In this document: piece by piece, positions 6,623-9,504 of the stretch
How the letters are laid out: each line of letters begins with the position of its first letter
Numbering within the stretch: position 1 is the stretch's first letter
Source of the DNA: a bacterium
GTDB lineage: Bacteria > SM23-31 > JAUVVT01
Length of the DNA stretch: 9,504 nt
NCBI GenBank assembly: GCA_030616165.1
Contig: JAUWXV010000145.1
Coordinates: 1-9,504, forward strand
Reading direction: 5' to 3'
Translations under genes and position numbers: made by a program
The notes under the pieces: generated by a model
The model's input: the letters and a program-made list of their open reading frames with translations, nothing else
Database searches by the model: none
What the model was told of the DNA's origin: nothing

Positions 6623-6695
6623 GGCGGACTTGTCCGCCTCTGGCGGGCTTGTCCGCCTCTGGCGGGCTTGTCCGCCTCTGGCGGGCTTGTCCGCC
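6623..6695. repeat. 19-bp tandem repeat with nested hairpins
   Basis: Three identical copies of CTTGTCCGCCTCTGGCGGG lie head to tail (6629-6647, 6648-6666, 6667-6685) and a fourth is cut off at 6695. Each copy can pair CCGCC with GGCGG around TCT. Across the left edge, GGCGGA and TCCGCC pair around CTTG (6623-6638). Single full units recur at 6781-6799 and 7207-7225, and one with a single change at 6953-6971. There are no spacers, so this is not a CRISPR array. Confidence 0.9.
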
Positions 6696-6724
6696 CTTCT
6701 TGTCATTCCCGCCCCCTCTTTGTC

Positions 6725-6748
6725 ATTCCCCCGAGTACTCGGGGGAAT
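6725..6748. repeat. 24-bp perfect palindrome (ATTCCCCC/GGGGGAAT)
   Basis: The two halves are exact reverse complements meeting at GAGTACTC. The sequence around it, TGTCATTCCC before and CC after, has the form of the TGTCATTCCC...GGGAATCC intergenic element I recall from many bacteria. A truncated second start, TGTCATTCCCGCC, sits 20 bp upstream at 6701. Confidence 0.85.
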
Positions 6749-6760
6749 CCATACAAAATA

Positions 6761-6928
6761 TTCCCTTCCTGCCCTTCGGGCTTGTCCGCCTCTGGCGGGC
6801 TTTCCCTTTTTTCCCATCCTTTTAATAAAAATGGTGGGATAGACATTCTTGTCTGTCATAATTTAACTATCTTTGTATGACCGTGTAATCCGTGGATACT
6901 TCTTATCTTTGCCTCCCTGCCCTTCGGG
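6761..6928. repeat. 168-bp duplicated block, copy 1
   Basis: This block aligns without gaps to 7187-7354, offset 426 bp, with six mismatches by eye. It contains in order TTCCCT, a CCCTTCGGG hairpin, a 19-bp unit, a T-rich stretch, TTTTAATAAAAATGG, the dyad at 6838-6857, GTGTAATCCGTGGATACT, and a second CCCTTCGGG. Each copy starts and ends near the mini-hairpin. Confidence 0.9.
6838..6857. repeat. Dyad in copy 1 (GATAGAC/GTCTGTC)
   Basis: GATAGAC and GTCTGTC flank ATTCTT. Six of seven pairs are Watson-Crick; the T at 6840 faces G and would be a G-U pair in RNA. The matching dyad in copy 2 is perfect. Confidence 0.7.
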
Positions 6929-6952
6929 TCTCTGTGCCCCCTGCCCTTTGGG

Positions 6953-6971
6953 CTTGCCCGCCTCTGGCGGG
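6953..6971. repeat. Variant 19-bp unit
   Basis: CTTGCCCGCCTCTGGCGGG differs from the tandem unit by one base (C for T at the fifth position). It sits between a TGCCCTTTGGG and a TGCCCTGTGGG mini-hairpin. Confidence 0.8.
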
Positions 6972-7031
6972 CTTGCCCTGTGGGCCTGTCCTTCGGATCT
7001 GTGGTTCAATCCCCATTCCCAAATCGCCCTC

Positions 7032-7102
7032 ATTTGTCATTGAGTCATTTAGATTTGATTTGTCATTTGAGCTTTGACATTTATGCGTTAGCATTTGAGC
7101 TT
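7032..7102. repeat. AT-rich TTTGTCATT / CATTTGAGCTT repeat block
   Basis: ATTTGTCATT occurs at 7032-7041 and 7058-7067, and CATTTGAGCTT at 7064-7074 and 7092-7102, with looser copies between (TGAGTCATTTAGATTTG). It is a degenerate short-period repeat inside the otherwise GC-rich mosaic. No coding sense is seen. Confidence 0.6.
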
Positions 7103-7186
7103 AATATTCCTGCTTCTATCTCTCTGTGCGTCCTTGCCCTGTGGGTCTGCGGTTAATTCTCTATATTCGTAAATCGTAAATCTTAA

Positions 7187-7354
7187 TTCCCTCCTTGCCC
7201 TTCGGGCTTGTCCGCCTCTGGCGGGCTTGCCCTTTTTTCCCATCCTTTTAATAAAAATGGTGGGACAGACATTCTTGTCTGTCATAATTTAATTATCTTT
7301 GTATGACTGTGTAATCCGTGGATACTTCTTATCTTTGCCTCCCTGCCCTTCGGG
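7187..7354. repeat. 168-bp duplicated block, copy 2
   Basis: This is the second copy of the block at 6761-6928, gap-free and differing at six positions. After it the sequences diverge into CTTTCCCTTTGCC and the GCCTCTGCG-rich right end of the mosaic. The 258 bp between the copies hold a different set of repeats. Confidence 0.9.
7264..7283. repeat. Dyad in copy 2 (GACAGAC/GTCTGTC)
   Basis: A perfect 7-bp inverted repeat surrounds an ATTCTT loop. It corresponds to the dyad at 6838-6857. It shares a TTGTC core with the 19-bp unit. No T-tract follows, so it is a weak terminator candidate. Confidence 0.75.
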
Positions 7355-7439
7355 CTTTCCCTTTGCCTCTGCGCCCTCCGCGCCTCTGCGGTTAATTTTA
7401 TTCAACTTGTTCATTATTTAAAAAAAAATAAATATTCTA

Positions 7440-7816: not shown

Positions 7817-9504
7817 ATGAAAGGATATACGCCTGATTCTAAATTATTTCAGGATAAATGGGATTTACCTGATAATCCATTTCCTTTTTTAGGAGCAGAC
7901 CAATATGCTGAAGATAAAGTTTTAAGTCTATTTGAAATAGATAGAGATTCTACATTAAGGGCTTTTTCTTTACAAAACACAATAATTGAAGGTTCATTCG
8001 GAACAGGTAAAACTATGCTTTTGAAGGCAATTTATGCTTTTCATTATTCAAAGATGATTGTTGATATCGCTGAAAGGAAAAAGTGTAATGTTCTCCCGAT
8101 TTATATAAAGTTTTCTGATTTACCTTATGATTCAGAAAACATATATAGAGATATAATTTTATATATTTATGAAAAAATATTAGATACTCGTTTTCTAATT
8201 ACAAATTTTTTAAGAGATACAAATTGGTTTATTAAATTTAAATTATGGTTAGAGCGTCTATCTAAATCTGGTATTTTTGCTGAAGACAAAAGATATTCTG
8301 AATTAACCGCTGAGACTGTGACTGAACGTGTTTCTAATGTTTTTAAGACCGAAGGTTCTGTGGGGTATAAATGGATTAAAGACTTAACCAATACTTATGA
8401 GAAAAGGTATGAAAAAGAATTAATAAAAAAATCTAAACCAGGAATTAAGGATTTAGAAAATCTTTTCAAATCTAGTTTTAGTAATATTTGTGATAAATTT
8501 TTATTATTAATTGATGAAGTTGATAGGCTTCATTATTCAGCTTTTTCAAAAGACAAATCAGAAGAGTATTCTGTATATGAAACAATATTCAATCAGTTTA
8601 GAACTAGTAATTTTCTTTTTTATAAGATGGCAGTTTATCCAGAAACAGAATCTTCCAAACAAGTTGAAGGTTCACGTATTGGGACAAGAATAAAATTAGG
8701 TTTTAATATTAAAGATATAGATGAATTTATATCTTCTCGTGATTTCTTTTTTAGAATTCTAAAGTCATATATTTCTTTTTGTGCAGGTCATGAAATTAAT
8801 CCGGTTAAAATTTTTTATATTCAATATAGTAATTTACCGCATAAATATCCTAATCGTACAAAACGTGTTGATGATTTAAAATATGGAGATTCGCTTGAAC
8901 AATTAGTGTTTGGTTCAAAAGGTGTTGTAAGACGTTTTATAAAACTAGCTGGTGATTCAATGATAGAAGCTGCAATAAGAGGTAAGCATATGAGAATTTC
9001 AAAATATAATGTATTTGATGCTATGCGATCTTTTGGAAAAGAATTGGTTGAAAGACTCCACGAAAACGATCGTGTATTGATTGATAGAATGGCATATTTT
9101 TGTCAAAATAAAAGGGTATTTAGGTTTAGAGCACTTGGTGAGGAAAAAATATTTTATGATATTTATAACAAAAGTAAACAAGATAATGTATTATATCCTA
9201 TTTTAGATCAGGATAGAAGAGGTATAACTTATATTTTTGAATTTGACTATTGTTATTGTTTATACAGAAATGTGCCTACTCATTCTTTTTTAAATGCTGA
9301 AAAAATAAACAAAGAGAGATCTTTAGTTAATGGTAAATGGATTGTAACTCCTTCAAATGTTCCCAAAAATGTTATAAATCTTGATTCAAAAATAAAGGGA
9401 TTTATAAAAAACTATCACAAAGATAAAGGATGGGGGTTTATTGCCTATTTACCGGGAAATGATCTATTTTTCCATAAAGTTAATATTATTTCTTTAGGTA
9501 AGCA
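7817..9504 (+). CDS. ORC/Cdc6-like AAA+ ATPase fused to a cold-shock domain (3' end outside window)
   Basis: An open frame of 562 codons runs off the window with no stop. The P-loop GSFGTGKT is at residues 59-66 and Walker B FLLLIDEVDRL at 228-238, with a sensor-1-like NFLFYKMAVYPE near 265. GSKGVVRRFIKLAGDSMIEA (367-386) looks like the sensor-2/winged-helix start of ORC/Cdc6-type ATPases. The long insert between Walker A and B (about 100-225) is helical and charged. Near the end, KIKGFIKNYHKDKGWGFI (525-542), then NDLFFHKV, matches a cold-shock domain: KGWGFI is RNP1-like and LFFH RNP2-like, and the usual KWF is KNY. Cold-shock domains bind single-stranded RNA or DNA. ATG 7817 is preferred because GGTGA (7807-7811) sits 5 nt upstream; ATG 7805 adds four residues. 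No membrane segment is seen. A nucleic-acid-responsive ATPase, possibly for defence or replication control, is inference. Confidence 0.8.
   Translation, partial: MKGYTPDSKLFQDKWDLPDNPFPFLGADQYAEDKVLSLFEIDRDSTLRAFSLQNTIIEGSFGTGKTMLLKAIYAFHYSKMIVDIAERKKCNVLPIYIKFSDLPYDSENIYRDIILYIYEKILDTRFLITNFLRDTNWFIKFKLWLERLSKSGIFAEDKRYSELTAETVTERVSNVFKTEGSVGYKWIKDLTNTYEKRYEKELIKKSKPGIKDLENLFKSSFSNICDKFLLLIDEVDRLHYSAFSKDKSEEYSVYETIFNQFRTSNFLFYKMAVYPETESSKQVEGSRIGTRIKLGFNIKDIDEFISSRDFFFRILKSYISFCAGHEINPVKIFYIQYSNLPHKYPNRTKRVDDLKYGDSLEQLVFGSKGVVRRFIKLAGDSMIEAAIRGKHMRISKYNVFDAMRSFGKELVERLHENDRVLIDRMAYFCQNKRVFRFRALGEEKIFYDIYNKSKQDNVLYPILDQDRRGITYIFEFDYCYCLYRNVPTHSFLNAEKINKERSLVNGKWIVTPSNVPKNVINLDSKIKGFIKNYHKDKGWGFIAYLPGNDLFFHKVNIISLGK

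Follow-up and report, generated by a model that had tools for sequence, protein, structure and literature searches.

A truncated bacterial gene joining an ORC/Cdc6-like ATPase to a cold-shock domain as a candidate conflict switch

Gene content of the contig

The window, that is, the whole stretch of DNA analyzed here, is a complete contig of 9504 bases (G000:C217) belonging to a draft genome of 343 contigs. Its last gene encodes an ATPase followed by a C-terminal cold-shock domain (CSD), and the reading frame stays open to the contig end with its 3′ end cut and no stop codon (Table 1). The encoded protein has 562 amino acids (aa) when read from ATG 7817 (short numbering); a start at the in-frame ATG 7805 would add four residues, giving 566 aa (long numbering). 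The sequence GGTGA, located 5 nt upstream of ATG 7817, makes 7817 a plausible start. No contig overlapping the cut end was recognized, because a 1705-base query against its own genome matched only itself, and an HMM search did not find the second half of the CSD elsewhere in that genome. The GC content at third codon positions (GC3) of the gene was 14.8%, whereas the five other genes of the window for which it was measured had 23-35%; the low value suggests that the gene was acquired from elsewhere.

Upstream of the ATPase gene, and behind an aminotransferase gene, the repeat mosaic mentioned in the preliminary description was recovered, with eight copies of a 19-nt unit and two 169-nt copies at 96% identity. 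This mosaic (GGCGGGCTTGTCCGCCTCT) is GC-rich, the contig otherwise having 26-41% GC. At the opposite contig end (positions 208-1582), a DUF7669 protein (E 4.8e-16), for which no plasmid relative was found, precedes a small protein that weakly resembles GIY-YIG (E 0.078); the two are possibly a restriction-type pair. Another contig of the same genome (G000:C302; L083:1-2655) carries a NACHT-type STAND protein whose start is cut by the contig end.

Table 1. Positions in the window of the ATPase-CSD gene, its motifs, and the upstream repeats
Feature	Position	Strand	Remarks
GC-rich repeat mosaic	6623..7388		Flanked by the aminotransferase and ATPase genes
ATPase-CSD gene	7817..9504	+	Open frame to contig end, 3′ end cut, no stop codon
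Walker A, GSFGTGKT	7991..8014	+	Residues 59-66 (short numbering); G-x-x-G-x-G-K unchanged throughout alignments A5 and A9
Walker B, LLLIDEVD, acidic pair in DEVD	8513..8524	+	DEVD at residues 233-236 (short numbering); neither D237 nor E238 (long numbering) varies in A5 or A9
Candidate arginine finger, R295 (long numbering) in SRIGTRIKLGF	8687..8689	+	Placed by analogy with the SR-F box of ORC/Cdc6
Sensor-2 region, GSKGVVRR	8912..8935	+	G373 and R376 (long numbering) identical in all six aligned sequences
First half of CSD, RNP1 KGWGFI and RNP2 DLFFH	9395..9490	+	About residues 527-558 (short numbering)

Motifs and class of the ATPase

The motifs of the ATPase part are intact. Walker A and the DEVD of Walker B lie at the residues that the preliminary description had given for them, counted from ATG 7817, and the sensor-2-like region that it had mentioned was located at GSKGVVRR with its two invariant residues. 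R295 may serve as the arginine finger, judging by analogy, and is not conserved in the branch of L055, one of the relatives described below.

The assignment of the protein to the ORC/Cdc6-like ATPases, also proposed in the preliminary description, held through its relatives, whereas the direct match was weak. The window protein matched the AAA profile with 21.4 bits (cut-off 21.2) and the ORC-CDC6-like family PF24389 with 18.2 bits, under the cut-off of 27 (residues 29-240 on model positions 6-226). Features of PF24389, namely the Walker A/B motifs and a sensor-2 arginine in the lid, were present. Because the relatives L055, L069, and L073 pass the PF24389 cut-off, and because hhalign against a profile of four relatives gave a probability of 97.6% over residues 55-315, the window ATPase is likely a member of the ORC/Cdc6-like clan, although its own score would place it outside PF24389 as curated. 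Two AlphaFold models of the protein, built with few and distant sequences, reached pLDDT values of 31.3 and 35.4; poor confidence is common under such circumstances. The PADLOC and NCBIfam libraries gave no named system for the window protein, and its PADLOC matches (CSD_V, HEC-02A, and PifA) were partial and weak only.

The cold-shock half-domain and its junction with the ATPase

The tail of the protein is the first half of a CSD, in keeping with the earlier suggestion of a cold-shock domain starting at about residue 525 in one frame; the match covers the first half only. The Pfam CSD model (PF00313) gave E 0.0024 and 18.1 bits at model positions 2-33 of 66, below the cut-off of 27 because the contig end at 9504 halves the domain, and the PADLOC model CSD_V matched the same half with E 2.4e-5. 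The half-domain keeps the pattern KG..K......KGWGFI......DLFFH...I, with RNP1 and RNP2 aligning gap-free to stand-alone CSDs. A model built from stand-alone CSDs scored 29.1 bits on the real protein, and the best of 2000 shuffled tails of the same composition reached 7.3 bits, so the CSD half is far above chance.

The junction of the ATPase with the CSD, located about 110 bases from the contig end, is genuine: there is no stop and no frame change between the two parts, and third-position GC is 14.8% and 19.6% on its two sides. The other CSD matches in the same genome were four stand-alone proteins (open frames of 66-87 aa) and one weak score in an RNase R-like protein (E 0.8), leaving the window gene as the sole match in this genome attached to an ATPase of the ORC/Cdc6-like kind. 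A weak CSD score in the NACHT protein (E 0.8) was discarded, as no CSD was visible by eye. In another genome, a 197-aa frame (L011:1363-1953; G269:C238) has a cold-shock domain that follows a stretch similar to a ribosome hibernation factor.

Distant relatives and their neighborhoods

No close homologue was found among plasmids, phages, viral contigs, and approximately 1,200 overlapping genome look-ups, and a scan of 84,980 species yielded two relatives, both distant, among the matches listed. The phage matches (E ~0.02), internal virion proteins of Aeromonas, covered residues 169-353 only, a segment that lacks the P-loop, and were dismissed as chance matches. Five other genomes of the phylum (63-83% complete) did not yield the gene, and no paper describing this ATPase-CSD fusion was found in the literature. 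The absence of relatives is weak evidence for the rarity of the fusion because the genome samples overlap, the species scan speaks only for the matches listed, and a positive control for close homologues was lacking. Since no close homologue was found, the fusion is represented by a single truncated gene from a single draft genome.

The nearest relatives are ORC-CDC6-like ATPases with approximately 20-25% identity (24% over 314 aa with L055 in blastp). The nearest group comprises L055, L069 from a Planktothrix plasmid, L073 from Sphingomonas, L074 from Sphingobium, and six viral contigs (L084-L089). These ATPases end in HhH-like tails, and in all ten a gene for the same small protein (232-265 aa) lies directly upstream; four of the ten supplied the sequences for the profile of this partner, so the remaining six are independent. 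Neighbors in this group include PAPS reductase and DUF4007 genes, as well as C5-methylases and DUF4928; one of the methylase contigs also has a gene for phage capsid scaffolding, and Dnd-like genes occur on the Planktothrix plasmid. PF24389 relatives carry other fusions (SIR2, kinase-like, and others), and the relative fused to SIR2 adjoins a DUF6884 gene. Among the plasmid relatives, the ATPase of L070 and L071 is flanked by a methyltransferase gene on one side and by another small protein on the other, and that of L072 has toxin-antitoxin genes upstream and a similar small protein downstream. The relatives are patchy and often located on mobile elements. The window protein is distant kin to defense-associated ATPases, and a defense role is likely for these relatives. 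The CSD was absent from all relatives examined, including those with defense-like neighbors; among the relatives found, only the window protein has a CSD within the ORC/Cdc6-like ATPase clan.

The small upstream gene and the ATPase gene form a two-gene module (L055:6824-9176, L069:5254-7611, L073:9072-11503, L074:9144-11506, L084:5062-7394, and L089:7293-9608) that is found both on prophage-like contigs and next to Dnd-like genes. The 232-265 aa partner contains LRLVLEL and S..(V/T)HG motifs, appears HEPN-like by eye only, and matched no convincing Pfam family. The relatives point to a module that recurs in Dnd-like islands and on prophage-like contigs, and no convincing PADLOC model was found for the members scanned. 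The related plasmid ATPases (L070:6578-7627, L071:6693-7541, and L072:6669-7493) have a zinc ribbon and an HhH-like tail and are followed by a small protein, which in L070 and L071 bears an RHC..H motif reminiscent of HEPN nucleases; a methyltransferase gene precedes the ATPase in two of the three.

A possible sensor ATPase in conflict

Our preferred reading, to which we assign a probability of roughly 0.42, is that the gene encodes a rare fusion in which a conflict-type ORC/Cdc6-like switch ATPase reads single-stranded nucleic acid through its CSD and thereby releases or recruits an adjacent effector. In ORC/Cdc6 and STAND-type switches, nucleotide binding and hydrolysis set the off or on state, and the CSD is an OB fold whose known members bind single-stranded RNA or DNA. 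The ATPase would belong to the ORC/Cdc6-like clan employed by prokaryotic conflict systems and, by analogy with these switches, act as a nucleotide-dependent switch, its off or on state being set by nucleotide binding and hydrolysis. The C-terminal CSD replaces the HhH or zinc-ribbon tail of the relatives, sitting where a trigger or target would be read, and might bind single-stranded RNA or DNA exposed during phage or plasmid replication. This binding could shift the ATPase, through its Walker A/B motifs, sensor 2, and lid, from a resting to an active and probably oligomeric state, which would then release or recruit an effector encoded next to the ATPase gene.

A defense role is plausible for the window gene because methylases, Dnd-like genes, and prophage cargo occur next to its distant relatives, one of which is fused to SIR2. 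The preliminary description had suggested that the ATPase may be part of a defense system; these neighborhoods favor that claim, whereas the relatives without a CSD and the failure to find a close homologue weaken it. Any downstream partner genes of the kind that it expected would lie beyond the contig end, and no defense gene is visible on that side. The position of the gene behind a repeat tract and housekeeping genes, as well as the absence of a library model naming a system, also speak against the preferred reading.

The stronger claim, that the protein stands for a previously undescribed class of conflict ATPases whose ORC/Cdc6-like switch detects single-stranded RNA or DNA directly via a CSD and triggers an effector, appears unlikely to us. 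How the switch ATPases of bacterial immunity recognize infection is mostly an open question, and a single-strand-binding domain built into such a protein would let the sequence itself reveal the trigger, which would be checkable with one purified protein.

Alternative explanations

The main rival to the sensor reading assigns the CSD the role of effector: once the ATPase is activated, the CSD would bind cellular mRNA and block translation or growth, acting as an abortive-infection toxin. The CSD half does match the NCBIfam model of the retron Se72 effector (E 0.0011), which, like the CSD_V model of PADLOC (E 2.4e-5), derives from defense settings. However, ordinary CspE-type models score nearly equally (E 0.0015), so the Se72 match does not single out an effector type, and position alone cannot distinguish a sensor from an effector; we regard this role as improbable.

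A maintenance function for a mobile element or plasmid, in which an ORC-like initiator or transposition regulator holds single-stranded DNA with its CSD, would agree with the ORC/Cdc6 kinship, the low GC3, and the placement of the gene beyond a repeat tract. Yet no integrase, replication, or transposase gene lies within the window, and several of the relatives are carried as cargo next to methylases or Dnd-like genes rather than next to replication genes, making this function quite improbable. Also considered was a cellular ATPase for stress or RNA handling, unrelated to conflict, since the complete genes closest to it on the contig (pilM, coaD, and an aminotransferase gene) have housekeeping roles. 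The failure to find the gene in the five other genomes of the phylum, its composition, which differs from that of neighboring genes, and the patchy, often mobile distribution of the relatives make such a role distinctly doubtful. An assembly or indel error merging two genes, one for the ATPase and a separate small one for a CSD, conceivable for a junction so close to a contig end in a single draft genome, is very unlikely given the frame open across the junction, the low third-position GC on both sides, and residues ahead of the CSD match that form a linker and do not resemble the short Met start with which stand-alone CSDs begin.

Comparison with known systems

The window protein shares with PF24389 ORC-CDC6-like proteins the P-loop core, the Walker A/B motifs, and the sensor-2 arginine, but it scores under the family cut-off, and the PF24389 relatives have other fusions and no CSD. 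The two-gene module represented by L055, L069, L073, L074, and L084-L089 provides its best sequence relatives, which differ by their HhH-like tails, the small upstream gene, and the lack of a CSD. A CSD is also used in defense by the retron effectors of the Se72 family and CSD_V, to which the window protein gave weak matches; a Se72-type effector is a small protein with a CSD that is associated with a reverse transcriptase, and no reverse transcriptase was detected among the nine window proteins scanned.

The models for the P-loop ATPase family Sll1717 (NF047389) and DS-41 (NF053860), the latter a validated anti-phage defense system (PMC13092281), score below cut-off on the relatives L051 and L055, and neither matches the window protein. 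The BrxC/BrxD proteins of BREX use an ORC-Cdc6 AAA+ core in defense, in a paper that mentions no cold-shock domain (PMC12839542); their ATPase type resembles that of the window protein, and no BREX partner was seen in the window. In type I CoCoNuT, a predicted RNA-targeting system, CnuB/McrB joins an NTPase to an N-terminal CSD-like OB fold (PMC11090510). That system has an McrB GTPase, an N-terminal CSD, and coiled coils, in contrast to the ORC-like ATPase and C-terminal CSD of the window protein, and neither McrB nor McrC found a match among the window proteins. CSDs also occur among the effector domains of other conflict systems (PMC7159879). The ATPase-CSD pairing of the window gene combines two known parts.
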